Shown one piece after another: positions 1 to 64,000 of a stretch of DNA of 64,000 nucleotides. Source of the stretch: Sinohyriopsis cumingii (Eukaryota > Mollusca > Bivalvia > Unionida > Unionidae); contig JAPYKE020000516.1 in NCBI GenBank assembly GCA_028554795.2, positions 124,001 to 188,000 of the forward strand, in the 5' to 3' direction. Below the pieces are notes generated by a model, which ran no database searches, was not told the origin of the DNA, and saw only the letters and a list, made by a program, of their open reading frames with translations. A program made the position numbers and the translations under genes. Positions within the stretch are counted from its first letter, which is position 1, and each line of letters begins with the position of its first letter.

Positions 1-230
1 ACACACAGACAACAACACCCTGAGCTCATATTATCAAGAATAAATGGTTACCTTTAAATCCCTACCAAAATGCATAAATAAAACTCTTCTATCTCCACCA
101 AAATAAGAGAGAAACAAATATTCTAAAAATAGACTAGAAATACATTCGTGGGTACTGAACTGGAAGTATTAATTGTGATGTAATTCCTGACAGGCTCCAT
201 GTTTTAAGCCAATTTTAGTCAAACTTTTAT

Positions 231-238
231 ATTTGCAT
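231..238 (+). promoter_or_regulatory. Octamer motif ATTTGCAT, shown in copy 1 (candidate)
   Basis: A perfect match to the octamer bound by POU-domain factors such as Oct1. It is repeated in each unit. Its mate at U3031-U3038 is in the opposite orientation, 415 bases upstream across the unit junction. Chance matches are quite possible in AT-rich DNA. Confidence 0.2.
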
Positions 239-1078
239 GCTATACCTATTTCAACTTTATACATGAAGTCTTTTTGAAATTCCTTGCAAACAAAACATGT
301 GACACCTGTCAGAAAGTATGTAGTGCTGGTGTTCCACAGGGTGCAAGGTCTAGTCCAAGTGCTCTTGAGAAGCCAAAACTAAATTTGCTATATCTTCCTT
401 AATTATAGAAATTTTTCAATGCAGTAAAAACCAAATTGTAATACAAGACAAGCCCTGTCTGAAATTATGTTTGAAATGTATCAATATTGATAAATTAAAT
501 TTTAATCGCAATTTAAATAAACATTTAAATTTTAAAAAGTAAATCGTTATTGAAAACTTATACAAGTTTTAAAACACAGATTGACAAATTTTAGACAGAA
601 AAGTTGACTAATGAATGGTATTTAAAACAAATGGTAGTCTGGGTTTGTACAACTGATAACATTTTTCCCAGGGATAGTGGAGCAACATAGCTCATAGTGA
701 TTTTGGCAGTAAACCGCTATATGCCTGTCCAGATACATATTGGTGTACACACTAAAGAAACAATGCCAGGTGCTATGTTCCACATTTATTGTGTCAGGTA
801 CTTAGGCAGTTGTTTCCATAACTAATAGCACATTCAGATTTAAAGTTCTGATGGGATCACTACCATGTTTTATAGCAAAAATGCATTCCATTTCAATGTC
901 GATAACTACAAAAGGTGACAATGGGATAGGAAAATAGTTTCTAGGGAGGCTCTACCTTACTAAAAAATGGTGCTGATCTCTCTCGTGAAGACCTAAGCCA
1001 AGTCTCTGAGGTGCTATATATCAGTGTGGTGATATAAACTAGTCTTGGCCACTTATGGCAGTACACTGCACATGCCCT

Positions 1079-1085
1079 TATAAAA
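1079..1085 (+). promoter_or_regulatory. TATAAAA motif in the GC-richest part of the unit (weak candidate)
   Basis: TATAAAA is preceded by GCACATGCCCT and followed, within 40 bases, by CACCGCCGG and CTATTGG. It lies in the stretch U960-U1170, the least AT-rich part of the unit. In an AT-rich sequence a TATA match is expected by chance, and no gene lies downstream, so this is only a place where a non-coding transcript might begin. Confidence 0.15.
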
Positions 1086-1274
1086 CCTTGCTATCACCGC
1101 CGGACTATTGGAGAGCTTAAAGCTGTTCCAACTCTAACACACTGTTCCAGATACCAGACTAAACCGGAAAAGATACAATATGTTTCACTTAATTCTAGAA
1201 AACAGTAAGATCTAGGTAAATGAAGTTAAAATGTGTTAGATATGGTGATTTCAAGATAACATTAAGGTTGCAAG

Positions 1275-1500
1275 CATGGGGGAAAATATTAAACTTGACA
1301 GAGTGACACTCAGAAATGTGAAGCAATGGCCATGCATTAAAGTGATAAATTCATCCTAAAAATATATCAGGTTTCTAGAAGCATATTTAACCATTTACAG
1401 CTTAAATAACTAATCAGGTAGACTATGTATCATAAAGTTTAAGGCAATGTTGAGGCAGTGAGGTTTGATCATTGGTGCAAACATTAGTACATACCAGTAT
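1275..1500. repeat. Possible third, older subrepeat Z, shown in copy 1
   Basis: Three landmarks match the X/Y pair in the same order: CATGGGGGAAA at 1275 against CATGAGGGAAA at 1560; GACACTCAGAAATGTG around 1311 against ACAGCCAGAAATGTG around 1971; and GATCATTGGTGCAAACATTAGTAC at 1467, whose parts resemble GATCAAATGTGCAAACAT at 1739 and GATCACTTATACAAAGTTAAGTAC at 2092. Offsets to X are 285, 300 and 272, so indels are needed. The middle part aligns poorly, so this is tentative. Confidence 0.4.
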
Positions 1501-1521
1501 AGAGGAAAGTCAAGTGACAAT

Positions 1522-1819
1522 GTACTAAATTAGAATATATTACTATAAGCAATCTTATTCATGAGGGAAATAACAATTTTGCATATTGCAAGTGAATACA
1601 GCCAAATGTGGTCACACAGATCAACTATAGGTACCAATAAATCCTATATCATCAACTAAATGTGAAAATCTGATCCCCAAAACTTGTAAACAAGGATGGA
1701 AAATTGCATATGTGGGACATATACAATGTACTTGTTAAGATCAAATGTGCAAACATAATTCAAATGATCTGTTTGAACATTTATAGTGTATTTTTAAGAG
1801 TGTTGGTTACCAATTATTA
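1522..1819. repeat. Internal subrepeat X (first of a diverged pair), shown in copy 1
   Basis: This stretch aligns in order with U1880-U2176. Matching landmarks are GTACTAAATT / GTACCAAATT (1522 / 1880), TATTCATGA (1556 / 1914), ACTATAGGTAC (in both halves, followed by divergent sequence), TTAAGATCA (1736 / 2089), AATCTGTTTGAA-like AATGATCTGTTTGAAC, and GTTACCAATTATTA / GTTAACAAATATTATTA at the ends. Identity over the first ~110 bases is roughly 70 % by hand. The same pair is present in every full unit, so the duplication predates the array. Confidence 0.85.
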
Positions 1820-1879
1820 AGCTCATTGATTCAGTGGAATCAGATATCAGCTGATGCTTCAATACCGCACTCTCTCAAA

Positions 1880-2176
1880 GTACCAAATTGAAATATGTTA
1901 CCATACATAGGCATATTCATGATGAAAATAACATTTTGGGATATTTTCAGTGCACACAGCCAGAAATGTGCCTTACAGATTCACTATAGGTACAATTGTC
2001 AGCCTATATGATGTACTGAATGTGAACTTTTGATCCCAAACATTCTAAAATGTATTGATATTTGTTCAGGTGGGATATGTAACCATGTTAAGATCACTTA
2101 TACAAAGTTAAGTACAAATAATCTGTTTGAATATTTCTTATGTAATCTTTAAAGTGTCAGTTAACAAATATTATTA
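1880..2176. repeat. Internal subrepeat Y (second of a diverged pair), shown in copy 1
   Basis: Partner of U1522-U1819 at an offset of 353-360 bases. Small changes in offset show several short indels between the halves. The first alpha/beta marker (U2149) lies inside this segment, and the marker at U1914 lies in its TATTCATGA landmark. Its presence shows that the 3.2-kb unit itself grew partly by an older, shorter tandem duplication. Confidence 0.85.
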
Positions 2177-2794
2177 GTAATTAATAATGCATGATAAAGC
2201 AAGATGGATCATTAGAATTCCCATAACATCATATTGGCCACAATGACACACTACACCAATCAATATCTTAACCAAACTGAACAATAAAATAGAATTCATT
2301 CTGTGTTCAACTTAACATCATTTTGCTCTTTTCTTACATCCAAGGGTAAATATACCTGGGGAAAGCATATTTTATCCCTTGGACCTGTATTTCATTCACA
2401 GACAGTGTAAAATGATTAAGTAGAGAACTTGAGTAGGTTCTATTATAAAGTTTTCATCACAGTCCTCTAACTAAATACCTTATAACTATGTTTATAAACA
2501 ATTACTAAAGGCTATACAAGCAGATATGTGTTACTCAGGAAGTGACCTCATCATAAACACATAAATTAACTGCTTGGAGCCGTAATAAATAGTCTGAATG
2601 GCCAATACAAAATATAATTTTGTCTTCATGTATTTAAAATGAAGGTCTCATTTTGACTTACAAAAATATTTTCTCTGACAAAATGTGACAAATATCCAAC
2701 ATTGGAGCTTGTATATGGTGTAGGAATATATACCTACTGATAACATTTAATATCATTCCAAAAAATATTATATATGTGCATTTTGGGAGGAAAC

Positions 2795-2850
2795 TTTATT
2801 AAAATTTTTAAATAAAAATTAATTTTTTACTTTTAATTTCATTCTTATAT
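2795..2850. other. Very AT-rich tract, shown in copy 1
   Basis: The tract is made of runs of A and T such as AAAATTTTTAAATAAAAATT and AATTTTTTAC, with few G or C. It is present in all units. Two base variants sit here or beside it: U2761 (A or G) and U2820 (T or C), which travel together in copies 16, 17 and 19. Such tracts can be bent or easily unwound DNA; any role is speculation. Confidence 0.7.
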
Positions 2851-3030
2851 TTTCACAGTCAATATACCTAACATATTCAAATTTCATGTGTCTATCATTA
2901 CTAATAAAGATTTTATACCAATTTAACTTTACTCCAATACTGCACTGACAGGATATAGAACATAATTAATTTTACTATATGTTCTCTACATTTGTTTCTC
3001 AGTACTGACCTTTCCACTGTGTGACAATCA

Positions 3031-3038
3031 ATGCAAAT
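3031..3038 (-). promoter_or_regulatory. Octamer motif ATGCAAAT, shown in copy 1 (candidate)
   Basis: Reverse-complement octamer within CAATCAATGCAAATCATATG, conserved in the units examined. It pairs with the forward copy at U231 of the next unit. Functional only if the array is accessible to transcription factors, which cannot be judged here. Confidence 0.2.
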
Positions 3039-3067
3039 CATATGTTAATCTAAAATACCTTCAAAGA

Positions 3068-3084
3068 TGACTTCACGGTGAAGT
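3068..3084. repeat. Short inverted repeat ACTTCAC-G-GTGAAGT, shown in copy 1
   Basis: Seven-base arms flank a single central G (about U3070-U3084). It is conserved in every full unit, and variant U3086 (C or G) lies just outside the right arm. It could be a protein-binding palindrome, or chance; it is not followed by a T-run and is not a terminator in any recognised sense. Confidence 0.5.
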
Positions 3085-3215
3085 TCTTGTCAAAGGTTGA
3101 CCTGCTCTTTTTTGAGATACTGGACTGTCAACATAGCAGCATGTAAACAGAACACAGATTTCACTTCCGAATCATCACCAAGGCCTTATTACTCACTGAG
3201 CGCTGTCGCCAAAAT

Positions 3216-6200
3216 ACACACAGACAACAACACCCTGAGCTCATATTATCAAGAATAAATGGTTACCTTTAAATCCCTACCAAAATGCATAAATAAAACT
3301 CTTCTATCTCCACCAAAATAAGAGAGAAACAAATATTCTAAAAATAGACTAGAAATACATTCGTGGGTACTGAACTGGAAGTATTAATTGTGATGTAATT
3401 CCTGACAGGCTCCATGTTTTAAGCCAATTTTAGTCAAACTTTTATATTTGCATGCTATACCTATTTCAACTTTATACATGAAGTCTTTTTGAAATTCCTT
3501 GCAAACAAAACATGTGACACCTGTCAGAAAGTATGTAGTGCTGGTGTTCCACAGGGTGCAAGGTCTAGTCCAAGTGCTCTTGAGAAGCCAAAACTAAATT
3601 TGCTATATCTTCCTTAATTATAGAAATTTTTCAATGCAGTAAAAACCAAATTGTAATACAAGACAAGCCCTGTCTGAAATTATGTTTGAAATGTATCAAT
3701 ATTGATAAATTAAATTTTAATCGCAATTTAAATAAACATTTAAATTTTAAAAAGTAAATCGTTATTGAAAACTTATACAAGTTTTAAAACACAGATTGAC
3801 AAATTTTAGACAGAAAAGTTGACTAATGAATGGTATTTAAAACAAATGGTAGTCTGGGTTTGTACAACTGATAACATTTTTCCCAGGGATAGTGGAGCAA
3901 CATAGCTCATAGTGATTTTGGCAGTAAACCGCTATATGCCTGTCCAGATACATATTGGTGTACACACTAAAGAAACAATGCCAGGTGCTATGTTCCACAT
4001 TTATTGTGTCAGGTACTTAGGCAGTTGTTTCCATAACTAATAGCACATTCAGATTTAAAGTTCTGATGGGATCACTACCATGTTTTATAGCAAAAATGCA
4101 TTCCATTTCAATGTCGATAACTACAAAAGGTGACAATGGGATAGGAAAATAGTTTCTAGGGAGGCTCTACCTTACTAAAAAATGGTGCTGATCTCTCTCG
4201 TGAAGACCTAAGCCAAGTCTCTGAGGTGCTATATATCAGTGTGGTGATATAAACTAGTCTTGGCCACTTATGGCAGTACACTGCACATGCCCTTATAAAA
4301 CCTTGCTATCACCGCCGGACTATTGGAGAGCTTAAAGCTGTTCCAACTCTAACACACTGTTCCAGATACCAGACTAAACCGGAAAAGATACAATATGTTT
4401 CACTTAATTCTAGAAAACAGTAAGATCTAGGTAAATGAAGTTAAAATGTGTTAGATATGGTGATTTCAAGATAACATTAAGGTTGCAAGCATGGGGGAAA
4501 ATATTAAACTTGACAGAGTGACACTCAGAAATGTGAAGCAATGGCCATGCATTAAAGCGATAAATTCATCCTAAAAATATATCAGGTTTCTAGAAGCATA
4601 TTTAACCATTTACAGCTTAAATAACTAATCAGGTAGACTATGTATCATAAAGTTTAAGGCAATGTTGAGGCAGTGAGGTTTGATCATTGGTGCAAACATT
4701 AGTACATACCAGTATAGAGGAAAGTCAAGTGACAATGTACTAAATTAGAATATATTACTATAAGCAATCTTATTCATGAGGGAAATAACAATTTTGCATA
4801 TTGCAAGTGAATACAGCCAAATGTGGTCACACAGATCAACTATAGGTACCAATAAATCCTATATCATCAACTAAATGTGAAAATCTGATCCCCAAAACTT
4901 GTAAACAAGGATGGAAAATTGCATATGTGGGACATATACAATGTACTTGTTAAGATCAAATGTGCAAACATAATTCAAATGATCTGTTTGAACATTTATA
5001 GTGTATTTTTAAGAGTGTTGGTTACCAATTATTAAGCTCATTGATTCAGTGGAATCAGATATCAGCTGATGCTTCAATACCGCACTCTCTCAAAGTACCA
5101 AATTGAAATATGTTACCATACATAGGCATATTCATGATGAAAATAACATTTTGGGATATTTTCAGTGCACACAGCCAGAAATGTGCCTTACAGATTCACT
5201 ATAGGTACAATTGTCAGCCTATATGATGTACTGAATGTGAACTTTTGATCCCAAACATTCTAAAATGTATTGATATTTGTTCATGTGGGATATGTAACCA
5301 TGTTAAGATCACTTATACAAAGTTAAGTACAAATAATCTGTTTGAATATTTCTTATGTAATCTGTAAAGTGTCAGTTAACAAATATTATTAGTAATTAAT
5401 AATGCATGATAAAGCAAGATGGATCATTAGAATTCCCATAACATCATATTGGCCACAATGACACACTACGCCAATCAATATCTTAACCAAACTGAACAAT
5501 AAAATAGAATTCATTCTGTGTTCAACTTAACATCATTTTGCTCTTTTCTTACATCCAAGGGTAAATATACCTGGGGAAAGCATATTGTATCCCTTGGACC
5601 TGTATTTCATTCACAGACAGTGTAAAATGATTAAGTAGAGAACTTGAGTAGGTTCTATTATAAAGTTTTCATCACAGTCCTCTAATTAAATACCTTATAA
5701 CTATGTTTATAAACAATTACTAAAGGCTATACAAGCAGATATGTGTTACTCAGGAAGTGACCTCATCATAAACACATAAATTAACTGCTTGGAGCCGTAA
5801 TAAATAGTCTGAATGGCCAATACAAAATATAATTTTGTCTTCATGTATTTAAAATGAAGGTCTCATTTTGACTTACAAAAATATTTTCTCTGACAAAATG
5901 TGACAAATATCCAATATTGGAGCTTGTATATGGTGTAGGAATATATACCTACTGATAACATTTAATATCATTCCAAAAAATATTATATATGTGCATTTTG
6001 GGAGGAAACTTTATTAAAATTTTTAAATAAAAATTAATTTTTTACTTTTAATTTCATTCTTATATTTTCACAGTCAATATACCTAACATATTCAAATTTC
6101 ATGTGTCTATCATTACTAATAAAGATTTTATACCAATTTAACTTTACTCCAATACTGCACTGACAGGATATAGAACATAATTAATTTTACTATATGTTCT

Positions 6201-6430
6201 CTACATTTGTTTCTCAGTACTGACCTTTCCACTGTGTGACAATCAATGCAAATCATATGTTAATCTAAAATACCTTCAAAGATGACTTCACGGTGAAGTT
6301 CTTGTCAAAGGTTGACCTGCTCTTTTTTGAGATACTGGACTGTCAACATAGCAGCATGTAAACAGAACACAGATTTCACTTCCGAATCATCACCAAGGCC
6401 TTATTACTCACTGAGCGCTGTCGCCAAAAT
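3216..6430. repeat. Array copy 2 (beta haplotype)
   Basis: 3,215 bp. It has the beta combination: G at U2149, G at U2255, G at U2372 and T at U2471, plus T at U2700. Its private difference is C at 4558 (U1343), which makes a CpG where all other copies have TpG. It is nearly identical to copy 3, from which I see only three differences (U1343, U1910, U2776). Confidence 0.97.
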
Positions 6431-9400
6431 ACACACAGACAACAACACCCTGAGCTCATATTATCAAGAATAAATGGTTACCTTTAAATCCCTACCAAAA
6501 TGCATAAATAAAACTCTTCTATCTCCACCAAAATAAGAGAGAAACAAATATTCTAAAAATAGACTAGAAATACATTCGTGGGTACTGAACTGGAAGTATT
6601 AATTGTGATGTAATTCCTGACAGGCTCCATGTTTTAAGCCAATTTTAGTCAAACTTTTATATTTGCATGCTATACCTATTTCAACTTTATACATGAAGTC
6701 TTTTTGAAATTCCTTGCAAACAAAACATGTGACACCTGTCAGAAAGTATGTAGTGCTGGTGTTCCACAGGGTGCAAGGTCTAGTCCAAGTGCTCTTGAGA
6801 AGCCAAAACTAAATTTGCTATATCTTCCTTAATTATAGAAATTTTTCAATGCAGTAAAAACCAAATTGTAATACAAGACAAGCCCTGTCTGAAATTATGT
6901 TTGAAATGTATCAATATTGATAAATTAAATTTTAATCGCAATTTAAATAAACATTTAAATTTTAAAAAGTAAATCGTTATTGAAAACTTATACAAGTTTT
7001 AAAACACAGATTGACAAATTTTAGACAGAAAAGTTGACTAATGAATGGTATTTAAAACAAATGGTAGTCTGGGTTTGTACAACTGATAACATTTTTCCCA
7101 GGGATAGTGGAGCAACATAGCTCATAGTGATTTTGGCAGTAAACCGCTATATGCCTGTCCAGATACATATTGGTGTACACACTAAAGAAACAATGCCAGG
7201 TGCTATGTTCCACATTTATTGTGTCAGGTACTTAGGCAGTTGTTTCCATAACTAATAGCACATTCAGATTTAAAGTTCTGATGGGATCACTACCATGTTT
7301 TATAGCAAAAATGCATTCCATTTCAATGTCGATAACTACAAAAGGTGACAATGGGATAGGAAAATAGTTTCTAGGGAGGCTCTACCTTACTAAAAAATGG
7401 TGCTGATCTCTCTCGTGAAGACCTAAGCCAAGTCTCTGAGGTGCTATATATCAGTGTGGTGATATAAACTAGTCTTGGCCACTTATGGCAGTACACTGCA
7501 CATGCCCTTATAAAACCTTGCTATCACCGCCGGACTATTGGAGAGCTTAAAGCTGTTCCAACTCTAACACACTGTTCCAGATACCAGACTAAACCGGAAA
7601 AGATACAATATGTTTCACTTAATTCTAGAAAACAGTAAGATCTAGGTAAATGAAGTTAAAATGTGTTAGATATGGTGATTTCAAGATAACATTAAGGTTG
7701 CAAGCATGGGGGAAAATATTAAACTTGACAGAGTGACACTCAGAAATGTGAAGCAATGGCCATGCATTAAAGTGATAAATTCATCCTAAAAATATATCAG
7801 GTTTCTAGAAGCATATTTAACCATTTACAGCTTAAATAACTAATCAGGTAGACTATGTATCATAAAGTTTAAGGCAATGTTGAGGCAGTGAGGTTTGATC
7901 ATTGGTGCAAACATTAGTACATACCAGTATAGAGGAAAGTCAAGTGACAATGTACTAAATTAGAATATATTACTATAAGCAATCTTATTCATGAGGGAAA
8001 TAACAATTTTGCATATTGCAAGTGAATACAGCCAAATGTGGTCACACAGATCAACTATAGGTACCAATAAATCCTATATCATCAACTAAATGTGAAAATC
8101 TGATCCCCAAAACTTGTAAACAAGGATGGAAAATTGCATATGTGGGACATATACAATGTACTTGTTAAGATCAAATGTGCAAACATAATTCAAATGATCT
8201 GTTTGAACATTTATAGTGTATTTTTAAGAGTGTTGGTTACCAATTATTAAGCTCATTGATTCAGTGGAATCAGATATCAGCTGATGCTTCAATACCGCAC
8301 TCTCTCAAAGTACCAAATTGAAATATGTTACCATACATAAGCATATTCATGATGAAAATAACATTTTGGGATATTTTCAGTGCACACAGCCAGAAATGTG
8401 CCTTACAGATTCACTATAGGTACAATTGTCAGCCTATATGATGTACTGAATGTGAACTTTTGATCCCAAACATTCTAAAATGTATTGATATTTGTTCATG
8501 TGGGATATGTAACCATGTTAAGATCACTTATACAAAGTTAAGTACAAATAATCTGTTTGAATATTTCTTATGTAATCTGTAAAGTGTCAGTTAACAAATA
8601 TTATTAGTAATTAATAATGCATGATAAAGCAAGATGGATCATTAGAATTCCCATAACATCATATTGGCCACAATGACACACTACGCCAATCAATATCTTA
8701 ACCAAACTGAACAATAAAATAGAATTCATTCTGTGTTCAACTTAACATCATTTTGCTCTTTTCTTACATCCAAGGGTAAATATACCTGGGGAAAGCATAT
8801 TGTATCCCTTGGACCTGTATTTCATTCACAGACAGTGTAAAATGATTAAGTAGAGAACTTGAGTAGGTTCTATTATAAAGTTTTCATCACAGTCCTCTAA
8901 TTAAATACCTTATAACTATGTTTATAAACAATTACTAAAGGCTATACAAGCAGATATGTGTTACTCAGGAAGTGACCTCATCATAAACACATAAATTAAC
9001 TGCTTGGAGCCGTAATAAATAGTCTGAATGGCCAATACAAAATATAATTTTGTCTTCATGTATTTAAAATGAAGGTCTCATTTTGACTTACAAAAATATT
9101 TTCTCTGACAAAATGTGACAAATATCCAATATTGGAGCTTGTATATGGTGTAGGAATATATACCTACTGATAACATTTAATATCATTCCAAAAAATATTA
9201 TATATATGCATTTTGGGAGGAAACTTTATTAAAATTTTTAAATAAAAATTAATTTTTTACTTTTAATTTCATTCTTATATTTTCACAGTCAATATACCTA
9301 ACATATTCAAATTTCATGTGTCTATCATTACTAATAAAGATTTTATACCAATTTAACTTTACTCCAATACTGCACTGACAGGATATAGAACATAATTAAT

Positions 9401-9645
9401 TTTACTATATGTTCTCTACATTTGTTTCTCAGTACTGACCTTTCCACTGTGTGACAATCAATGCAAATCATATGTTAATCTAAAATACCTTCAAAGATGA
9501 CTTCACGGTGAAGTTCTTGTCAAAGGTTGACCTGCTCTTTTTTGAGATACTGGACTGTCAACATAGCAGCATGTAAACAGAACACAGATTTCACTTCCGA
9601 ATCATCACCAAGGCCTTATTACTCACTGAGCGCTGTCGCCAAAAT
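6431..9645. repeat. Array copy 3 (beta haplotype)
   Basis: 3,215 bp, beta at the four linked sites, T at U2700 and A at U2776 (TATATATATGCA instead of TATATATGTGCA). Its private change is A at 8340 (U1910). It is the last copy with T at U465 and G at U1502, so copies 1-3 form a local group in the left half of the unit although copy 1 is alpha in the right half. Confidence 0.97.
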
Positions 9646-12600
9646 ACACACAGACAACAACACCCTGAGCTCATATTATCAAGAATAAATGGTTACCTTT
9701 AAATCCCTACCAAAATGCATAAATAAAACTCTTCTATCTCCACCAAAATAAGAGAGGAACAAATATTCTAAAAATAGACTAGAAATACATTCGTGGGTAC
9801 TGAACTGGAAGTATTAATTGTGATGTAATTCCTGACAGGCTCCATGTTTTAAGCCAATTTTAGTCAAACTTTTATATTTGCATGCTATACCTATTTCAAC
9901 TTTATACATGAAGTCTTTTTGAAATTCCTTGCAAACAAAACATGTGACACCTGTCAGAAAGTATGTAGTGCTGGTGTTCCACAGGGTGCAAGGTCTAGTC
10001 CAAGTGCTCTTGAGAAGCCAAAACTAAATTTGCTATATCTTCCTTAATTATAGAAATTTTTCAATGCAGTAAAAACCAAATTGTAATACAAGACAAGCCC
10101 TGTCTGAAAATATGTTTGAAATTTATCAATATTGATAAATTAAATTTTAATCGCAATTTAAATAAACATTTAAATTTTAAAAAGTAAATCGTTATTGAAA
10201 ACTTATACAAGTTTTAAAACACAGATTGACAAATTTTAGACAGAAAAGTTGACTAATGAATGGTATTTAAAACAAATGGTAGTCTGGGTTTGTACAACTG
10301 ATAACATTTTTCCCAGGGATAGTGGAGCAACATAGCTCATAGTGATTTTGGCAGTAAACCGCTATATGCCTGTCCAGATACATATTGGTGTACACACTAA
10401 AGAAACAATGCCAGGTGCTATGTTCCACATTTATTGTGTCAGGTACTTAGGCAGTTGTTTCCATAACTAATAGCACATTCAGATTTAAAGTTCTGATGGG
10501 ATCACTACCATGTTTTATAGCAAAAATGCATTCCATTTCAATGTCGATAACTACAAAAGGTGACAATGGGATAGGAAAATAGTTTCTAGGAAGGCTCTAC
10601 CTTACTAAAAAATGGTGCTGATCTCTCTCGTGAAGACCTAAGCCAAGTCTCTGAGGTGCTATATATCAGTGTGGTGATATAAACTAGTCTTGGCCACTTA
10701 TGGCAGTACACTGCACATGCCCTTATAAAACATTGCTATCACCGCCGGACTATTGGAGAGCTTAAAGCTGTTCCAACTCTAACACACTGTTCCAGATACC
10801 AGACTAAACCGGAAAAGATACAATATGTTTCACTTAATTCTAGAAAACAGTAAGATCTAGGTAAATGAAGTTAAAATGTGTTAGATATGGTGATTTCAAG
10901 ATAACATTAAGGTTGCAAGCATGGGGGAAAATATTAAACTTGACAGAGTGACACTCAGAAATGTGAAGCAATGGCCATGCATTAAAGTGATAAATTCATC
11001 CTAAAAATATATCAGGTTTCTAGAAGCATATTTAACCATTTACAGCTTAAATAACTAATCAGGTAGACTATGTATCATAAAGTTTAAGGCAATGTTGAGG
11101 CAGTGAGGTTTGATCATTGGTGCAAACATTAGTACATACCAGTATACAGGAAAGTCAAGTGACAATGTACTAAATTAGAATATATTACTATAAGCAATCT
11201 TATTCATGAGGGAAATAACAATTTTGCATATTGCAAGTGAATACAGCCAAATGTGGTCACACAGATCAACTATAGGTACCAATAAATCCTATATCATCAA
11301 CTAAATGTGAAAATCTGATCCCCAAAACTTGTAAACAAGGATGGAAAATTGCATATGTGGGACATATACAATGTACTTGTTAAGATCAAATGTGCAAACA
11401 TAATTCAAATGATCTGTTTGAACATTTATAGTGTATTTTTAAGAGTGTTGGTTACCAATTATTAAGCTCATTGATTCAGTGGAATCAGATATCAGCTGAT
11501 GCTTCAATACCGCACTCTCTCAAAGTACCAAATTGAAATATGTTACCATACATAGGCATATTCATGATGAAAATAACATTTTGGGATATTTTCAGTGCAC
11601 ACAGCCAGAAATGTGCCTTACAGATTCACTATAGGTACAATTGTCAGCCTATATGATGTACTGAATGTGAACTTTTGATCCCAAACATTCTAAAATGTAT
11701 TGATATTTGTTCATGTGGGATATGTAACCATGTTAAGATCACTTATACAAAGTTAAGTACAAATAATCTGTTTGAATATTTCTTATGTAATCTTTAAAGT
11801 GTCAGTTAACAAATATTATTAGTAATTAATAATGCATGATAAAGCAAGATGGATCATTAGAATTCCCATAACATCATATTGGCCACAATGACACACTACA
11901 CCAATCAATATCTTAACCAAACTGAACAATAAAATAGAATTCATTCTGTGTTCAACTTAACATCATTTTGCTCTTTTCTTACATCCAAGGGTAAATATAC
12001 CTGGGGAAAGCATATTTTATCCCTTGGACCTGTATTTCATTCACAGACAGTGTAAAATGATTAAGTAGAGAACTTGAGTAGGTTCTATTATAAAGTTTTC
12101 ATCACAGTCCTCTAACTAAATACCTTATAACTATGTTTATAAACAATTACTAAAGGCTATACAAGCAGATATGTGTTACTCAGGAAGTGACCTCATCATA
12201 AACACATAAATTAACTGCTTGGAGCCGTAATAAATAGTCTGAATGGCCAATACAAAATATAATTTTGTCTTCATGTATTTAAAATGAAGGTCTCATTTTG
12301 ACTTACAAAAATATTTTCTCTGACAAAATGTGACAAATATCCAACATTGGAGCTTGTATATGGTGTAGGAATATATACCTACTGATAACATTTAATATCA
12401 TTCCAAAAAATATTATATATGTGCATTTTGGGAGGAAACTTTATTAAAATTTTTAAATAAAAATTAATTTTTTACTTTTAATTTCATTCTTATATTTTCA
12501 CAGTCAATATACCTAACATATTCAAATTTCATGTGTCTATCATTACTAATAAAGATTTTATACCAATTTAACTTTACTCCAATACTGCACTGACAGGATA

Positions 12601-12860
12601 TAGAACATAATTAATTTTACTATATGTTCTCTACATTTGTTTCTCAGTACTGACCTTTCCACTGTGTGACAATCAATGCAAATCATATGTTAATCTAAAA
12701 TACCTTCAAAGATGACTTCACGGTGAAGTTCTTGTCAAAGGTTGACCTGCTCTTTTTTGAGATACTGGACTGTCAACATAGCAGCATGTAAACAGAACAC
12801 AGATTTCACTTCCGAATCATCACCAAGGCCTTATTACTCACTGAGCGCTGTCGCCAAAAT
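9646..12860. repeat. Array copy 4 (alpha haplotype)
   Basis: 3,215 bp, alpha. It has G at U112, A at U465, T at U478 (perfect palindrome), A at U1087 (AAAACATTG, shared only with copies 6 and 12) and C at U1502. By eye it differs from copy 6, two units away, only at 10591, where it has A instead of G. This is much closer than its match to its immediate neighbours. Confidence 0.97.
10120..10141. repeat. Perfect 22-bp palindrome (shown in copy 4; U475-U496 in each unit)
   Basis: The arm AATTTATCAAT is followed directly by its exact reverse complement, with no loop. The copies with T at U478 (4, 6, 9, 11, 12, 14-18 and 20) have it perfect; copies 1, 2, 3, 5, 7, 8, 10, 13 and 19 have G at U478 and one mismatched pair. 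It sits in a very AT-rich stretch (about U480-U560). It could extrude as a cruciform or bind a dimeric protein, but nothing in the sequence shows a function. Confidence 0.8.
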
Positions 12861-15800
12861 ACACACAGACAACAACACCCTGAGCTCATATTATCAAGAA
12901 TAAATGGTTACCTTTAAATCCCTACCAAAATGCATAAATAAAACTCTTCTATCTCCACCAAAATAAGAGAGAAACAAATATTCTAAAAATAGACTAGAAA
13001 TACATTCGTGGGTACTGAACTGGAAGTATTAATTGTGATGTAATTCCTGACAGGCTCCATGTTTTAAGCCAATTTTAGTCAAACTTTTATATTTGCATGC
13101 TATACCTATTTCAACTTTATACATGAAGTCTTTTTGAAATTCCTTGCAAACAAAACATGTGACACCTGTCAGAAAGTATGTAGTGCTGGTGTTCCACAGG
13201 GTGCAAGGTCTAGTCCAAGTGCTCTTGAGAAGCCAAAACTAAATTTGCTATATCTTCCTTAATTATAGAAATTTTTCAATGCAGTAAAAACCAAATTGTA
13301 ATACAAGACAAGCCCTGTCTGAAAATATGTTTGAAATGTATCAATATTGATAAATTAAATTTTAATCGCAATTTAAATAAACATTTAAATTTTAAAAAGT
13401 AAATCGTTATTGAAAACTTATACAAGTTTTAAAACACAGATTGACAAATTTTAGACAGAAAAGTTGACTAATGAATGGTATTTAAAACAAATGGTAGTCT
13501 GGGTTTGTACAACTGATAACATTTTTCCCAGGGATAGTGGAGCAACATAGCTCATAGTGATTTTGGCAGTAAACCGCTATATGCCTGTCCAGATACATAT
13601 TGGTGTACACACTAAAGAAACAATGCCAGGTGCTATGTTCCACATTTATTGTGTCAGGTACTTAGGCAGTTGTTTCCATAACTAATAGCACATTCAGATT
13701 TAAAGTTCTGATGGGATCACTACCATGTTTTATAGCAAAAATGCATTCCATTTCAATGTCGATAACTACAAAAGGTGACAATGGGATAGGAAAATAGTTT
13801 CTAGGGAGGCTCTACCTTACTAAAAAATGGTGCTGATCTCTCTCGTGAAGACCTAAGCCAAGTCTCTGAGGTGCTATATATCAGTGTGGTGATATAAACT
13901 AGTCTTGGCCACTTATGGCAGTACACTGCACATGCCCTTATAAAACCTTGCTATCACCGCCGGACTATTGGAGAGCTTAAAGCTGTTCCAACTCTAACAC
14001 ACTGTTCCAGATACCAGACTAAACCGGAAAAGATACAATATGTTTCACTTAATTCTAGAAAACAGTAAGATCTAGGTAAATGAAGTTAAAATGTGTTAGA
14101 TATGGTGATTTCAAGATAACATTAAGGTTGCAAGCATGGGGGAAAATATTAAACTTGACAGAGTGACACTCAGAAATGTGAAGCAATGGCCATGCATTAA
14201 AGTGATAAATTCATCCTAAAAATATATCAGGTTTCTAGAAGCATATTTAACCATTTACAGCTTAAATAACTAATCAGGTAGACTATGTATCATAAAGTTT
14301 AAGGCAATGTTGAGGCAGTGAGGTTTGATCATTGCTGCAAACATTAGTACATACCAGTATACAGGAAAGTCAAGTGACAATGTACTAAATTAGAATATAT
14401 TACTATAAGCAATCTTATTCATGAGGGAAATAACAATTTTGCATATTGCAAGTGAATACAGCCAAATGTGGTCACACAGATCAACTATAGGTACCAATAA
14501 ATCCTATATCATCAACTAAATGTGAAAATCTGATCCCCAAAACTTGTAAACAAGGATGGAAAATTGCATATGTGGGACATATACAATGTACTTGTTAAGA
14601 TCAAATGTGCAAACATAATTCAAATGATCTGTTTGAACATTTATAGTGTATTTTTAAGAGTGTTGGTTACCAATTATTAAGCTCATTGATTCAGTGGAAT
14701 CAGATATCAGCTGATGCTTCAATACCGCACTCTCTCAAAGTACCAAATTGAAATATGTTACCATACATAGGCATATTCATGATGAAAATAACATTTTGGG
14801 ATATTTTCAGTGCACACAGCCAGAAATGTGCCTTACAGATTCACTATAGGTACAATTGTCAGCCTATATGATGTACTGAATGTGAACTTTTGATCCCAAA
14901 CATTCTAAAATGTATTGATATTTGTTCATGTGGGATATGTAACCATGTTAAGATCACTTATACAAAGTTAAGTACAAATAATCTGTTTGAATATTTCTTA
15001 TGTAATCTGTAAAGTGTCAGTTAACAAATATTATTAGTAATTAATAATGCATGATAAAGCAAGATGGATCATTAGAATTCCCATAACATCATATTGGCCA
15101 CAATGACACACTACGCCAATCAATATCTTAACCAAACTGAACAATAAAATAGAATTCATTCTGTGTTCAACTTAACATCATTTTGCTCTTTTCTTACATC
15201 CAAGGGTAAATATACCTGGGGAAAGCATATTGTATCCCTTGGACCTGTATTTCATTCACAGACAGTGTAAAATGATTAAGTAGAGAACTTGAGTAGGTTC
15301 TATTATAAAGTTTTCATCACAGTCCTCTAATTAAATACCTTATAACTATGTTTATAAACAATTACTAAAGGCTATACAAGCAGATATGTGTTACTCAGGA
15401 AGTGACCTCATCATAAACACATAAATTAACTGCTTGGAGCCGTAATAAATAGTCTGAATGGCCAATACAAAATATAATTTTGTCTTCATGTATTTAAAAT
15501 GAAGGTCTCATTTTGACTTACAAAAATATTTTCTCTGACAAAATGTGACAAATATCCAACATTGGAGCTTGTATATGGTGTAGGAATATATACCTACTGA
15601 TAACATTTAATATCATTCCAAAAAATATTATATATATGCATTTTGGGAGGAAACTTTATTAAAATTTTTAAATAAAAATTAATTTTTTACTTTTAATTTC
15701 ATTCTTATATTTTCACAGTCAATATACCTAACATATTCAAATTTCATGTGTCTATCATTACTAATAAAGATTTTATACCAATTTAACTTTACTCCAATAC

Positions 15801-16075
15801 TGCACTGACAGGATATAGAACATAATTAATTTTACTATATGTTCTCTACATTTGTTTCTCAGTACTGACCTTTCCACTGTGTGACAATCAATGCAAATCA
15901 TATGTTAATCTAAAATACCTTCAAAGATGACTTCACGGTGAAGTTCTTGTCAAAGGTTGACCTGCTCTTTTTTGAGATACTGGACTGTCAACATAGCAGC
16001 ATGTAAACAGAACACAGATTTCACTTCCGAATCATCACCAAGGCCTTATTACTCACTGAGCGCTGTCGCCAAAAT
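12861..16075. repeat. Array copy 5 (beta haplotype)
   Basis: 3,215 bp, beta. It has A at U112, G at U478 (imperfect palindrome), C at U1475 (CATTGCTGC, shared only with copy 8) and A at U2776. Copy 8 is its closest relative in the window; I see two differences, at U1312 and U2700. Confidence 0.97.
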
Positions 16076-19000
16076 ACACACAGACAACAACACCCTGAGC
16101 TCATATTATCAAGAATAAATGGTTACCTTTAAATCCCTACCAAAATGCATAAATAAAACTCTTCTATCTCCACCAAAATAAGAGAGGAACAAATATTCTA
16201 AAAATAGACTAGAAATACATTCGTGGGTACTGAACTGGAAGTATTAATTGTGATGTAATTCCTGACAGGCTCCATGTTTTAAGCCAATTTTAGTCAAACT
16301 TTTATATTTGCATGCTATACCTATTTCAACTTTATACATGAAGTCTTTTTGAAATTCCTTGCAAACAAAACATGTGACACCTGTCAGAAAGTATGTAGTG
16401 CTGGTGTTCCACAGGGTGCAAGGTCTAGTCCAAGTGCTCTTGAGAAGCCAAAACTAAATTTGCTATATCTTCCTTAATTATAGAAATTTTTCAATGCAGT
16501 AAAAACCAAATTGTAATACAAGACAAGCCCTGTCTGAAAATATGTTTGAAATTTATCAATATTGATAAATTAAATTTTAATCGCAATTTAAATAAACATT
16601 TAAATTTTAAAAAGTAAATCGTTATTGAAAACTTATACAAGTTTTAAAACACAGATTGACAAATTTTAGACAGAAAAGTTGACTAATGAATGGTATTTAA
16701 AACAAATGGTAGTCTGGGTTTGTACAACTGATAACATTTTTCCCAGGGATAGTGGAGCAACATAGCTCATAGTGATTTTGGCAGTAAACCGCTATATGCC
16801 TGTCCAGATACATATTGGTGTACACACTAAAGAAACAATGCCAGGTGCTATGTTCCACATTTATTGTGTCAGGTACTTAGGCAGTTGTTTCCATAACTAA
16901 TAGCACATTCAGATTTAAAGTTCTGATGGGATCACTACCATGTTTTATAGCAAAAATGCATTCCATTTCAATGTCGATAACTACAAAAGGTGACAATGGG
17001 ATAGGAAAATAGTTTCTAGGGAGGCTCTACCTTACTAAAAAATGGTGCTGATCTCTCTCGTGAAGACCTAAGCCAAGTCTCTGAGGTGCTATATATCAGT
17101 GTGGTGATATAAACTAGTCTTGGCCACTTATGGCAGTACACTGCACATGCCCTTATAAAACATTGCTATCACCGCCGGACTATTGGAGAGCTTAAAGCTG
17201 TTCCAACTCTAACACACTGTTCCAGATACCAGACTAAACCGGAAAAGATACAATATGTTTCACTTAATTCTAGAAAACAGTAAGATCTAGGTAAATGAAG
17301 TTAAAATGTGTTAGATATGGTGATTTCAAGATAACATTAAGGTTGCAAGCATGGGGGAAAATATTAAACTTGACAGAGTGACACTCAGAAATGTGAAGCA
17401 ATGGCCATGCATTAAAGTGATAAATTCATCCTAAAAATATATCAGGTTTCTAGAAGCATATTTAACCATTTACAGCTTAAATAACTAATCAGGTAGACTA
17501 TGTATCATAAAGTTTAAGGCAATGTTGAGGCAGTGAGGTTTGATCATTGGTGCAAACATTAGTACATACCAGTATACAGGAAAGTCAAGTGACAATGTAC
17601 TAAATTAGAATATATTACTATAAGCAATCTTATTCATGAGGGAAATAACAATTTTGCATATTGCAAGTGAATACAGCCAAATGTGGTCACACAGATCAAC
17701 TATAGGTACCAATAAATCCTATATCATCAACTAAATGTGAAAATCTGATCCCCAAAACTTGTAAACAAGGATGGAAAATTGCATATGTGGGACATATACA
17801 ATGTACTTGTTAAGATCAAATGTGCAAACATAATTCAAATGATCTGTTTGAACATTTATAGTGTATTTTTAAGAGTGTTGGTTACCAATTATTAAGCTCA
17901 TTGATTCAGTGGAATCAGATATCAGCTGATGCTTCAATACCGCACTCTCTCAAAGTACCAAATTGAAATATGTTACCATACATAGGCATATTCATGATGA
18001 AAATAACATTTTGGGATATTTTCAGTGCACACAGCCAGAAATGTGCCTTACAGATTCACTATAGGTACAATTGTCAGCCTATATGATGTACTGAATGTGA
18101 ACTTTTGATCCCAAACATTCTAAAATGTATTGATATTTGTTCATGTGGGATATGTAACCATGTTAAGATCACTTATACAAAGTTAAGTACAAATAATCTG
18201 TTTGAATATTTCTTATGTAATCTTTAAAGTGTCAGTTAACAAATATTATTAGTAATTAATAATGCATGATAAAGCAAGATGGATCATTAGAATTCCCATA
18301 ACATCATATTGGCCACAATGACACACTACACCAATCAATATCTTAACCAAACTGAACAATAAAATAGAATTCATTCTGTGTTCAACTTAACATCATTTTG
18401 CTCTTTTCTTACATCCAAGGGTAAATATACCTGGGGAAAGCATATTTTATCCCTTGGACCTGTATTTCATTCACAGACAGTGTAAAATGATTAAGTAGAG
18501 AACTTGAGTAGGTTCTATTATAAAGTTTTCATCACAGTCCTCTAACTAAATACCTTATAACTATGTTTATAAACAATTACTAAAGGCTATACAAGCAGAT
18601 ATGTGTTACTCAGGAAGTGACCTCATCATAAACACATAAATTAACTGCTTGGAGCCGTAATAAATAGTCTGAATGGCCAATACAAAATATAATTTTGTCT
18701 TCATGTATTTAAAATGAAGGTCTCATTTTGACTTACAAAAATATTTTCTCTGACAAAATGTGACAAATATCCAACATTGGAGCTTGTATATGGTGTAGGA
18801 ATATATACCTACTGATAACATTTAATATCATTCCAAAAAATATTATATATGTGCATTTTGGGAGGAAACTTTATTAAAATTTTTAAATAAAAATTAATTT
18901 TTTACTTTTAATTTCATTCTTATATTTTCACAGTCAATATACCTAACATATTCAAATTTCATGTGTCTATCATTACTAATAAAGATTTTATACCAATTTA

Positions 19001-19290
19001 ACTTTACTCCAATACTGCACTGACAGGATATAGAACATAATTAATTTTACTATATGTTCTCTACATTTGTTTCTCAGTACTGACCTTTCCACTGTGTGAC
19101 AATCAATGCAAATCATATGTTAATCTAAAATACCTTCAAAGATGACTTCACGGTGAAGTTCTTGTCAAAGGTTGACCTGCTCTTTTTTGAGATACTGGAC
19201 TGTCAACATAGCAGCATGTAAACAGAACACAGATTTCACTTCCGAATCATCACCAAGGCCTTATTACTCACTGAGCGCTGTCGCCAAAAT
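16076..19290. repeat. Array copy 6 (alpha haplotype)
   Basis: 3,215 bp, alpha. It matches copy 4 at all diagnostic sites (G at U112, T at U478, A at U1087), with a single difference noticed over the full unit. This near-identity at a distance of two units suggests that a two-unit block was duplicated. Confidence 0.97.
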
Positions 19291-41803: not shown

Positions 41804-44800
41804 ACACACAGACAACAACACCCTGAGCTCATATTATCAAGAATAAATGGTTACCTTTAAATCCCTACCAAAATGCATAAATAAAACTCTTCTATCTCCA
41901 CCAAAATAAGAGAGGAACACATATTCTAAAAATAGACTAGAAATACATTCGTGGGTACTGAACTGGAAGTATTAATTGTGATGTAATTCCTGACAGGCTC
42001 CATGTTTTAAGCCAATTTTAGTCAAACTTTTATATTTGCATGCTATACCTATTTCAACTTTATACATGAAGTCTTTTTGAAATTCCTTGCAAACAAAACA
42101 TGTGACACCTCTCAGAAAGTATGTAGTGCTGGTGTTCCACAGGGTGCAAGGTCTAGTCCAAGTGCTCTTGAGAAGCCAAAACTAAATTTGCTATATCTTC
42201 CTTAATTATAGAAATTTTTCAATGCAGTAAAAACCAAATTGTAATACAAGACAAGCCCTGTCTGAAAATATGTTTGAAATTTATCAATATTGATAAATTA
42301 AATTTTAATCGCAATTTAAATAAACATTTAAATTTTAAAAAGTAAATCGTTATTGAAAACTTAAATTTTTATACAAGTTTTAAAACACAGATTGACAAAT
42401 TTTAGACAGAAAAGTTGACTAATGAATGGTATTTAAAACAAATGGTAGTCTGGGTTTGTACAACTGATAACATTTTTCCCAGGGATAGTGAAGCAACATA
42501 GCTCATAGTGATTTTGGCAGTAAACCGCTATATGCCTGTCCAGATACATATTGGTGTACACACTAAAGAAACAATGCCAGGTGCTATGTTCCACATTTAT
42601 TGTGTCAGGTACTTAGGCAGTTGTTTCCATAACTAATAGCACATTCAGATTTAAAGTTCTGATGGGACCACTACCATGTTTTATAGCAAAAATGCATTCC
42701 ATTTCAATGTCGATAACTACAAAAGGTGACAATGGGATAGGAAAATAGTTTCTAGGGAGGCTCTACCTTACTAAAAAATGGTGCTGATCTCTCTCGTGAA
42801 GACCTAAACCAAGTCTCTGAGGTGCTATATATCAGTGTGGTGATATAAACTAGTCTTGGCCACTTATGGCAGTACACTGCACATGCCCTTATAAAACCTT
42901 GCTATCACCGCTGGACTATTGGAGAGCTTAAAGCTGTTCCAACTCTAACACACTGTTCCAGATACCAGGCTAAACCGGAAAAGATACAATATGTTTCACT
43001 CAATTCTAGAAAACAGTAAGATCTAGGTAAATGAAGTTAAAATGTGTTAGATATGGTGATTTCAAGATAACATTAAGGTTGCAAGCATGGGGGAAAATAT
43101 TAAACTTGACAGAGTGACACTCAGAAATGTGAAGCAATGGCCATGCATTAAAGTGATAAATTCATCCTAAAAATATATCAGGTTTCTAGAAGCATATTTA
43201 ACCATTTACAGCTTAAATAACTAATCAGGTAGACTATGTATCATAAAGTTTAAGGCAATGTTGAGGCAGTGAGGTTTGATCATTGGTGCAAACATTAGTA
43301 CATACCAGTATACAGGAAAGTCAAGTGACAATGTACTAAATTAGAATATATTACTATAAGCAATCTTATTCATGAGGGAAATAACAATTTTGCATATTGC
43401 AAGTGAATACAGCCAAATGTGGTCACACAGATCAACTATAGGTACCAATAAATCCTATATCATCAACTAAATGTGAAAATCTGATCCCCAAAACTTGTAA
43501 ACAAGGATGGAAAATTGCATATGTGGGACATATACAATGTACTTGTTAAGATCAAATGTGCAAACATAATTCAAATGATCTGTTTGAACATTTATAGTGT
43601 ATTTTTAAGAGTGTTGGTTACCAATTATTAAGCTCATTGATTCAGTGGAATCAGATATCAGCTGATGCTTCAATACCGCACTCTCTCAAAGTACCAAATT
43701 GAAATATGTTACCATACATAGGCATATTCATGATGAAAATAACATTTTGGGATATTTTCAGTGCACACAGCCAGAAATGTGCCTTACAGATTCACTATAG
43801 GTACAATTGTCAGCCTATATGATGTACTGAATGTGAACTTTTGATCCCAAACATTCTAAAATGTATTGATATTTGTTCATGTGGGATATGTAACCATGTT
43901 AAGATCACTTATACAAAGTTAAGTACAAATAATCTGTTTGAATATTTCTTATGTAATCTGTAAAGTGTCAGTTAACAAATATTATTAGTAATTAATAATG
44001 CATGATAAAGCAAGATGGATCATTAGAATTCCCATAACATCATATTGGCCACAATGACACACTACGCCAATCAATATCTTAACCAAACTGAACAATAAAA
44101 TAGAATTCATTCTGTGTTCAACTTATCATCATTTTGCTCTTTTCTTACATCCAAGGGTAAATATACCTGGGGAAAGCATATTTTATCCCTTGGACCTGTA
44201 TTTCATTCACAGACAGTGTAAAATGATTAAGTAGAGAACTTGAGTAGGTTCTATTATAAAGTTTTCATCACAGTCCTCTAACTAAATACCTTATAACTAT
44301 GTTTATAAACAATTACTAAAGGCTATACAAGCAGATATGTGTTACTCAGGAAGTGACCTCATCATAAACACATAAATTAACTGCTTGGAGCCGTAATAAA
44401 TAGTCTGAATGGCCAATACAAAATATAATTTTGTCTTCATGTATTTAAAATGAACGTCTCATTTTGACTTACAAAAATATTTTCTCTGACAAAATGTGAC
44501 AAATATCCAACATTGGAGCTTGTATATGGTGTAGGAATATATACCTACTGATAACATTTAATATCATTCCAAAAAATATTATATATGTGCATTTTGGGAG
44601 GAAACTTTATTAAAATTTTTAAATAAAAATTAATTTTTTACTTTTAATTTCATTCTTATATTTTCACAGTCAATATACCTAACATATTCAAATTTCATGT
44701 GTCTATCATTACTAATAAAGATTTTATACCAATTTAACTTTACTCCAATACTGCACTGACAGGATATAGAACATAATTAATTTTACTATATGTTCTCTAC

Positions 44801-48246: not shown

Positions 48247-48799
48247 GACAACAACACCCTGAGCTCATATTATCAAGAATAAATGGTTACCTTTAAATCC
48301 CTACCAAAATGCATAAATAAAACTCTTCTATCTCCACCAAAATAAGAGAGGAACAAATATTCTAAAAATAGACTAGAAATACATTCGTGGGTACTGAACT
48401 GGAAGTATTAATTGTGATGTAATTCCTGACAGGCTCCATGTTTTAAGCCAATTTTAGTCAAACTTTTATATTTGCATGCTATACCTATTTCAACTTTATA
48501 CATGAAGTCTTTTTGAAATTCCTTGCAAACAAAACATGTGACACCTGTCAGAAAGTATGTAGTGCTGGTGTTCCACAGGGTGCAAGGTCTAGTCCAAGTG
48601 CTCTTGAGAAGCCAAAACTAAATTTGCTATATCTTCCTTAATTATAGAAATTTTTCAATGCAGTAAAAACCAAATTGTAATACAAGACAAGCCCTGTCTG
48701 AAAATATGTTTGAAATTTATCAATATTGATAAATTAAATTTTAATCGCAATTTAAATAAACATTTAAATTTTAAAAAGTAAATCGTTATTGAAAACTTA

Positions 48800-48807
48800 A
48801 ATTTTTA
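48800..48807. other. 8-bp indel AATTTTTA in copy 16
   Basis: Same insertion as in copies 13 and 14, while copy 15 between them lacks it. Loss by recombination or conversion in copy 15, or transfer between copies, is needed to explain the pattern. Confidence 0.95.
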
Positions 48808-48850
48808 TACAAGTTTTAAAACACAGATTGACAAATTTTAGACAGAAAAG

Positions 48851-60800: not shown

Positions 60801-61107
60801 GATTTTATACCAATTTAACTTTACTCCAATACTGCACTGACAGGATATAGAACATAATTAATTTTACTATATGTTCTCTACATTTGTTTCTCAGTACTGA
60901 CCTTTCCACTGTGTGACAATCAATGCAAATCATATGTTAATCTAAAATACCTTCAAAGATGACTTCACGGTGAAGTTCTTGTCAAAGGTTGACCTGCTCT
61001 TTTTTGAGATACTGGACTGTCAACATAGCAGCATGTAAACAGAACACAGATTTCACTTCCGAATCATCACCAAGGCCTTATTACTCACTGAGCGCTGTCG
61101 CCAAAAT
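57893..61107. repeat. Array copy 19 (right-hand group, mosaic left half)
   Basis: 3,215 bp. The right end matches copy 17 (G at U2761, C at U2820, C at U3086), but the left third has the older states G at U308, G at U478 and T at U776. CATCGATT at U1827 (a new CpG) and GCAGATTC at U1914 are shared only with copy 20. Its private change is TTTACTGTGT near 58681. Confidence 0.97.
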
Positions 61108-64000
61108 ACACACAGACAACAACACCCTGAGCTCATATTATCAAGAATAAATGGTTACCTTTAAATCCCTACCAAAATGCATAAATAAAACTCTTCTATC
61201 TCCACCAAAATAAGAGAGGAACAAATATTCTAAAAATAGACTAGAAATACATTCGTGGGTACTGAACTGGAAGTATTAATTGTGATGTAATTCCTGACAG
61301 GCTCCATGTTTTAAGCCAATTTTAGTCAAACTTTTATATTTGCATGCTATACCTATTTCAACTTTATACATGAAGTCTTTTTGAAATTCCTTGCAAACAA
61401 AACATGTGACACCTCTTAGAAAGTATGTAGTGCTGGTGTTCCACAGGGTGCAAGGTCTAGTCCAAGTGCTCTTGAGAAGCCAAAACTAAATTTGCTATAT
61501 CTTCCTTAATTATAGAAATTTTTCAATGCAGTAAAAACCAAATTGTAATACAAGACAAGCCCTGTCTGAAAATATGTTTGAAATTTATCAATATTGATAA
61601 ATTAAATTTTAATCGCAATTTAAATAAACATTTAAATTTTAAAAAGTAAATCGTTATTGAAAACTTATACAAGTTTTAAAATACAGATTGACAAATTTTA
61701 GACAGAAAAGTTGACTAATGAATGGTATTTAAAACAAATGGTAGTCTGGGTTTGTACAACTGATAACATTTTTCCCAGGGATAGTGGAGCAACATAGCTC
61801 ATAGTGATTTTGGCAGTAAACCGCTATATGCCTGTCCAGATACATATTGGTGTACACACTAAAGAAACAATGCCAGGTGCTACGTTCCACATTTATTGTG
61901 TCAGGTACTTAGGCAGTTGTTTCCATAACTAATAGCACATTCAGATTTAAAGTTCTGATGGGATCACTACCATGTTTTATAGCAAAAATGCATTCCATTT
62001 CAATGTCGATAACTACAAAAGGTGACAATGGGATAGGAAAATAGTTTCTAGGGAGGCTCTACCTTACTAAAAAATGGTGCTGATCTCTCTCGTGAAGACC
62101 TAAGCCAAGTCTCTGAGGTGCTATATATCAGTGTGGTGATATAAACTAGTCTTGGCCACTTATGGCAGTACACTGCACATGCCCTTATAAAACCTTGCTA
62201 TCACCGCCGGACTATTGGAGAGCTTAAAGCTGTTCCAACTCTAACACACTGTTCCAGATACCAGACTAAACCGGAAAAGATACAATATGTTTCACTTAAT
62301 TCTAGAAAACAGTAAGATCTAGGTAAATGAAGTTAAAATGTGTTAGATATGGTGATTTCAAGATAACATTAAGGTTGCAAGCATGGGGGAAAATATTAAA
62401 CTTGACAGAGTGACACTCAGAAATGTGAAGCAATGGCCATGCATTAAAGTGATAAATTCATCCTAAAAATATATCAGGTTTCTAGAAGCATATTTAACCA
62501 TTTACAGCTTAAATAACTAATCAGGTAGACTATGTATCATAAAGTTTAAGGCAATGTTGAGGCAGTGAGGTTTGATCATTGGTGCAAACATTAGTACATA
62601 CCAGTATACAGGAAAGTCAAGTGACAATGTACTAAATTAGAATATATTACTATAAGCAATCTTATTCATGAGGGAAATAACAATTTTGCATATTGCAAGT
62701 GAATACAGCCAAATGTGGTCACACAGATCAACTATAGGTACCAATAAATCCTATATCATCAACTAAATGTGAAAATCTGATCCCCAAAACTTGTAAACAA
62801 GGATGGAAAATTGCATATGTGGGACATATACAATGTACTTGTTAAGATCAAATGTGCAAACATAATTCAAATGATCTGTTTGAACATTTATAGTGTATTT
62901 TTAAGAGTGTTGGTTACCAATTATTAAGCTCATCGATTCAGTGGAATCAGATATCAGCTGATGCTTCAATACCGCACTCTCTCAAAGTACCAAATTGAAA
63001 TATGTTACCATACATAGGCAGATTCATGATGAAAATAACATTTTGGGATATTTTCAGTGCACACAGCCAGAAATGTGCCTTACAGATTCACTATAGGTAC
63101 AATTGTCAGCCTATATAATGTACTGAATGTGAACTTTTGATCCCAAACATTCTAAAATGTATTGATATTTGTTCATGTGGGATATGTAACCATGTTAAGA
63201 TCACTTATACAAAGTTAAGTACAAATAATCTGTTTGAATATTTCTTATGTAATCTTTAAAGTGTCAGTTAACAAATATTATTAGTAATTAATAATGCATA
63301 ATAAAGCAAGATGGATCATTAGAATTCCCATAACATCATATTGGCCACAATGACACACTACGCCAATCAATATCTTAACCAAACTGAACAATAAAATAGA
63401 ATTCATTCTGTGTTCAACTTAACATCATTTTGCTCTTTTCTTACATCCAAGGGTAAATATACCTGGGGAAAGCATATTTTATCCCTTGGACCTGTATTTC
63501 ATTCACAGACAGTGTAAAATGATTAAGTAGAGAACTTGAGTAGGTTCTATTATAAAGTTTTCATCACAGTCCTCTAACTAAATACCTTATAACTATGTTT
63601 ATAAACAATTACTAAAGGCTATACAAGCAGATATGTGTTACTCAGGAAGTGACCTCATCATAAACACATAAATTAACTGCTTGGAGCCGTAATAAATAGT
63701 CTGAATGGCCAATACAAAATATAATTTTGTCTTCATGTATTTAAAATGAAGGTCTCATTTTGACTTACAAAAATATTTTCTCTGACAAAATGTGACAAAT
63801 ATCCAACATTGGAGCTTGTATATGGTGTAGGAATATATACCTACTGATAACATTTAATATCATTCCAAAAAATATTATATATGTGCATTTTGGGAGGAAA
63901 CTTTATTAAAATTTTTAAATAAAAATTAATTTTTTACTTTTAATTTCATTCTTATATTTTCACAGTCAATATACCTAACATATTCAAATTTCATGTGTCT
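61108..64000. repeat. Array copy 20 (partial, cut by window end)
   Basis: The first 2,893 bases of a unit; the window stops at U2893, inside the sequence TCATGTGTCT. The left half matches copy 18 (CCTCTTAGAA, AAAATACAGA, C at U776), and U1827 and U1914 match copy 19. Private changes are TATATAATGT near 63116 and TGCATAATAA near 63300. Confidence 0.97.

Follow-up and report, generated by a model that had tools for sequence, protein, structure and literature searches.

Human D4Z4 and DXZ4 are GC-rich macrosatellites in which a unit of about 3 kb is repeated in a long tandem array. Layered centromeric satellite arrays are known for regional subfamilies and older-looking edges. In bivalves, the oyster Crassostrea gigas has a CgiSat38 monomer of 3,287 bp and CgiSat04 and CgiSat07 monomers of over 2 kb, the last two, both standalone satellites, having arrays of at most 19 and 13 monomers; the available parts of that report describe oyster satellite arrays as relatively short and scattered, the longest among the satellites inspected measuring about 40 kb (PMC8268682). 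In the accessible text on Limnoperna fortunei, satellite units reach 2,891 bp (PMC12818792), and the SSUsat satellite of Spisula subtruncata is placed, in the portion available, in heterochromatin with methylation at three times the genome mean (PMC5537241).

The array described here comes from Sinohyriopsis cumingii. The window, by which we mean the whole 64,000-nucleotide stretch that was analysed (positions 124,001 to 188,000 of contig C516), is filled head-to-tail by a 3,215-bp unit that we call A. Unit A shares a size of about 3 kb and a long tandem array with D4Z4 and DXZ4, but these are GC-rich and the window has 32.2% GC. The human comparison drawn in the sequence-only reading is probably not apt, as the 19 large contigs of the genome, its CpG observed/expected ratio (o/e) of 0.71 in sampled stretches and the presence of a tRNA-derived SINE-like repeat are unlike a mammal. 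Regional subfamilies and older-looking edges bring the array close to layered centromeric ones, whereas its unit is far longer than nucleosomal. Compared by their published descriptions, as far as these are available, the long-monomer satellites of C. gigas are likewise kilobase tandem monomers in a bivalve, although the longest oyster array inspected (~40 kb) contrasts with about 740 kb of A, as sampled, on contig C242 (PMC8268682). SSUsat, in the same partial sense, differs in its 315-bp monomer and 44% GC, against 3,215 bp and 32% GC for A (PMC5537241). No described satellite could be equated with unit A in the open full-text literature, judged mostly from titles and the beginnings of abstracts. 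Unit A is most likely a species- or lineage-specific macrosatellite. The array looks like a known kind of satellite block, unusually large and otherwise ordinary, and it is notable mainly for its size and for the pairing of A arrays with those of a second repeat, B.

Structure and content of the A array

The features of the window are as follows, all on the plus strand.

1 to 64,000, plus strand: tandem array of unit A (autocorrelation, anchors and alignment)
1 to 3,215, plus strand: one unit A, phase arbitrary (copy alignment)
2,951 to 4,321, plus strand: module common to A and B, 1,371 bp, made of unit positions 2,951-3,215 joined to 1-1,106
1,107 to 2,950, plus strand: A-specific part, with no counterpart in unit B
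1,518 to 1,819, plus strand: internal duplication, first copy
1,876 to 2,173, plus strand: internal duplication, second copy
39,138 to 39,145, plus strand: 8-bp insertion in copy 13
42,361 to 42,368, plus strand: 8-bp insertion in copy 14
48,797 to 48,804, plus strand: 8-bp insertion in copy 16
208 to 399, plus strand: open stretch in the shared module with a sub-threshold resemblance to RVT_1

The autocorrelation of the window peaks at lag 3,215 and its multiples, with 87.7% ungapped identity at 3,215 and a median of 28% over lags 50 to 19,999. Anchors locate 20 copy starts; the last copy is truncated at 2,893 bp and the other 19 are complete. Fifteen of the 19 spacings are 3,215 bp, one is 3,213 bp, and the three of 3,223 bp contain an 8-bp insertion (alignment columns 558-565). 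Flanking sequence is absent from the window, both of whose ends lie inside the array. Identity to copy 1 ranges from 99.19 to 99.88% among the other 19, the mean pairwise identity is 99.6%, and 76 of the 3,223 columns of the copy alignment are variable, three of them spuriously, because the last copy is cut short. An old duplication is visible within the unit, its ~300-bp halves being 71% identical and spaced by about 358 bp. Tandem Repeats Finder reported nothing, because its longest period of 500 is shorter than the 3,215-bp unit. The array thereby has the head-to-tail kilobase units, the homogeneity consistent with concerted evolution and the extent of hundreds of kilobases that are expected of a macrosatellite.

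Copies differ in ways that bear on how they evolve. Up to column 2,895, the 20 window copies have 28 informative sites, and all four gametes occur at 87 of the 378 site pairs. Provided that each site mutated only once, the copies must have recombined at least 7 times; such pairs can also stem from recurrent mutation. Distance between copies grows with their separation (Mantel r 0.24, p 0.011), neighbours being more alike, and the mean distance by lag has no sharp period, which speaks against a higher-order repeat in the window. This pattern shows recombination and local homogenisation among copies. It fits unequal crossing-over, gene conversion and rolling-circle reinsertion alike.

A coding or RNA function for unit A was considered and rejected: the entire window holds a single open reading frame of at least 60 amino acids (73 aa, TTG start, table 11), the tRNA search of the window was empty, and in a scan of 10 kb every Rfam family stayed below its gathering score. 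An exact 32-base pattern of unit A had 0 matches in prokaryote and viral contig collections. Positions 208-399 score E 0.05 and 13.7 bits against the RVT_1 profile (cut-off 29.6) and contain the letters GVPQG, a weak hint that this part of the shared module is perhaps a scrap of an old retrotransposon. The sequence-only reading had proposed an AT-rich, CpG-poor, non-coding and highly homogeneous array of a unit of about 3,215 bp, in at least 19.9 copies without flank, and the composition, copy counts and searches given here and below agree with it on each of these points.

CpG dinucleotides are scarce in the window (318, o/e 0.19). Unit A itself has a CpG o/e of 0.18, with TG at 1.38 and CA at 1.33, compared with 0.71, 1.23 and 1.23 in the genome background. 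This background, of 38% GC, is a non-random sample of 32 stretches (29.3 kb), each starting at base 50,001 of its contig. CpG-poor sequence also occurs outside the array: four of the 35 stretches sampled have an o/e of 0.11 or less (L074, L081, L090 and L105, of which two measure 1,500 bases and the other two 400). As far as base composition can tell, CpG depletion with an excess of TG and CA suggests long-standing germline methylation, and a heterochromatic block is plausible.

Extent of A and its borders with repeat B

A haploid number of 19 and tRNA-derived SINEs are both common in bivalves. The assembly comprises 2,904,868,851 bases in 1,138 contigs. Contigs C1 to C19 measure 72-193 Mb each and sum to about 2.51 Gb, C20 to C22 are each below 2 Mb, and about 0.39 Gb remain outside the large ones. 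For Anodonta woodiana, a genome of 2.80 Gb and 19 chromosomes is given in the available part of the report (PMC12048480). On the contig number, the background CpG o/e and the SINE-like piece of unit B alone, a bivalve host, possibly among the freshwater mussels, would be likely.

A search with 301 bases of unit A returned 1,179 first-look candidates, and the best 40 of these, which were scored, are all 100% identical and lie on C516, C242 and C54; there may be further sites elsewhere in the genome. In the stretches sampled on C516, A runs forward from about position 246 (about 0.25 kb) to about 291,000. At the very start of this contig (L011:1-251), ~250 bp of unit A stand inverted before the forward array. 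On C242, reading covered 13 separate stretches spread over 1-739.3 kb (L017-L024; L004-L010, counted as one; L042; L043; L107; L045), and each of them holds A in reverse orientation. A 300-bp stretch of shared module on the same contig, L044, is on its own closer to B (99.3 vs 96.7%), and its 9-kb surroundings (L107) are A. On C54, forward A extends from 158 kb or earlier to the contig end at 203 kb. As the contigs end inside arrays, the full length of the array may exceed what they show.

Repeat B recurs roughly every 7,711 bp. It takes over where A ends on C516 and C242, and is also found on C54 and C442; these four contigs carry the best 40 of the 632 first-look candidates of the B search, the 40 that were scored. 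Neighbouring B copies are 99.5-99.9% identical, as measured on the 2.3-kb self-overlap of three 10-kb stretches (L016:1-10000, L026 and L027, from C516, C242 and C54). The two units share 1,371-1,383 bp, leaving specific parts of 1,844 bp for A and 6,328 bp for B. Unit B also has a SINE-like piece, found again in stretches L028, L084 and L103, whose head scores as a tRNA (tRNA-Pro-like, Rfam tRNA 35.4 bits on L016). On C516, A gives way to B inside the shared module, at a point that can only be bracketed to about 291.0-292.3 kb because few sites separate the 21 A modules from the 6 B modules. On C242 it falls between 739.3 and 746.5 kb. Within this module, 7 window copies differ by 0.4% among themselves, by 1.0% from 12 C242 copies, and by 1.6-2.1% (mean 1.9%) from 6 B modules.

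Subfamilies of A are arranged with respect to B. The copies read far from B, at 1-64 kb of C516 and 1-362 kb of C242, have in common a one-base insertion near unit position 66 and another near 1118 (stretch L003 is too short for the second insertion). The copies read nearer to B have neither. The 8-bp piece, too, is missing from 17 of the 20 window copies and from the pair of C516 copies read at 220-284 kb.

The array meets other DNA on C54, at about 52,889 and 146,959. Remnants of the A-specific part at these edges are 92.4 and 92.7% identical, while truncated modules, at 89.9-94.9% depending on the stretch and reference unit, lead into B. Edge remnants of A are thus 90-95% identical overall to interior units, compared with 99.6% within the window. 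The B-specific part next to them is little diverged (99.1 and 97.8%). The two edges are mirror images across a palindrome of about 200 kb, the arms of which are separated near position 99,809 by a spacer of about 570 bp. Each of the 10 mirrored pairs tested is 97.4-100% identical in reverse orientation, the lowest being L063 with L118 (97.4%); the stretches read over 52,000-147,000 are L028, L057-L067 and L108-L120, with the array at both outer ends. Outside the edges the arms differ: to the left, the places read hold B as far as the beginning of the contig, and to the right there is one B unit or little more, and then A. The middle of C54 has a CpG o/e of 0.60 (7.3 kb). Either a genuine inverted duplication that has since changed or a head-to-head join of two haplotypes would account for this palindrome.

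What kind of locus this is

We favour, at a probability of about 0.82, the reading that the window lies inside a long macrosatellite array without coding function, next to arrays of B with which it shares the 1.37-kb module; the block would be silent and is probably methylated heterochromatin. Copies of A would have been spread and made uniform by unequal exchange together with gene conversion between misaligned repeats, and this homogenisation would be more effective inside the array than at its edges. The shared module may serve as a bridge that lets A and B recombine, and the block would have no sequence-encoded product. Counting against this reading are the CpG-poor stretches elsewhere in the genome, the coarse bracketing of the A-to-B change on C516, the recurrent mutation that could equally produce four-gamete pairs, and the limited divergence of B-specific sequence beside the edge remnants.

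Among more specific interpretations, the array could be the functional centromere or pericentromere of one chromosome, with A as the interior core and B on the flanks. This is doubtful, but it agrees with the layering on C242 and C516, where one A subfamily lies far from B and others near it, as well as with the diverged remnants at the array edges. Joined in sequence, C242 and C516 would also fit a candidate order of B-A-A(core)-A-B. Against a centromere, the 64 kb of the window contain 0 CENP-B-box-like sites within one mismatch of the consensus, although invertebrate centromeres do not need this box, and C. gigas is reported, in the part of the paper available, to be without centromere-specific repeats (PMC8268682). 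A non-recombining sex-linked or ampliconic region is improbable. The C54 palindrome, with its two long arms, short spacer, ten mirrored pairs and array at both outer ends, would suit such a region, but palindromic contigs can be assembly joins of two haplotypes. We see a distinctly unlikely combination in which A and B form one composite B-A-B locus, megabase-sized, grown outward from a central A core and with a palindromic border, acting as a bivalve centromere or sex-linked block built of kilobase units that are not nucleosome-sized.

That unit A might be a tandemised mobile element, still moving, is very improbable: the RVT_1-like peptide (E 0.05) and the tRNA-derived SINE-like piece that unit B shares with three other stretches point in that direction, but unit A has no long open reading frame and no match in the 35 other sampled stretches of the genome (30.5 kb). 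It is scarcely credible that a few real copies were looped into a long contig by the assembly. C516, C242 and C54 all lie outside the 19 large contigs, and C516 begins with its inverted stretch of about 250 bp; however, unit lengths vary by region, three contigs agree, and a looped single copy is argued against because copies carry their own variants.

The macrosatellite that we favour, a kilobase-unit array of several hundred kilobases or more with a module-sharing partner and recognisable old edges, would be well suited as a model of the growth, exchange and decay of such blocks in molluscs. Were it centromeric, it would offer a sequence handle on a centromere in a genome of this type; otherwise it is an ordinary repeat that was not placed in the large contigs of the assembly.

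One observation concerns the last contig of the assembly, C1138 (17.1 kb). It was considered as a mitochondrial genome and set aside, the three pieces read (4.9 kb) not being mitochondrial-looking. What is apparently the same open frame of ~350 codons (table 5) occurs within 5,001-8,000 (L110) and within 12,001-13,500 (L112), from which C1138 may itself be repeated. Another of its frames may resemble a GIY-YIG endonuclease.
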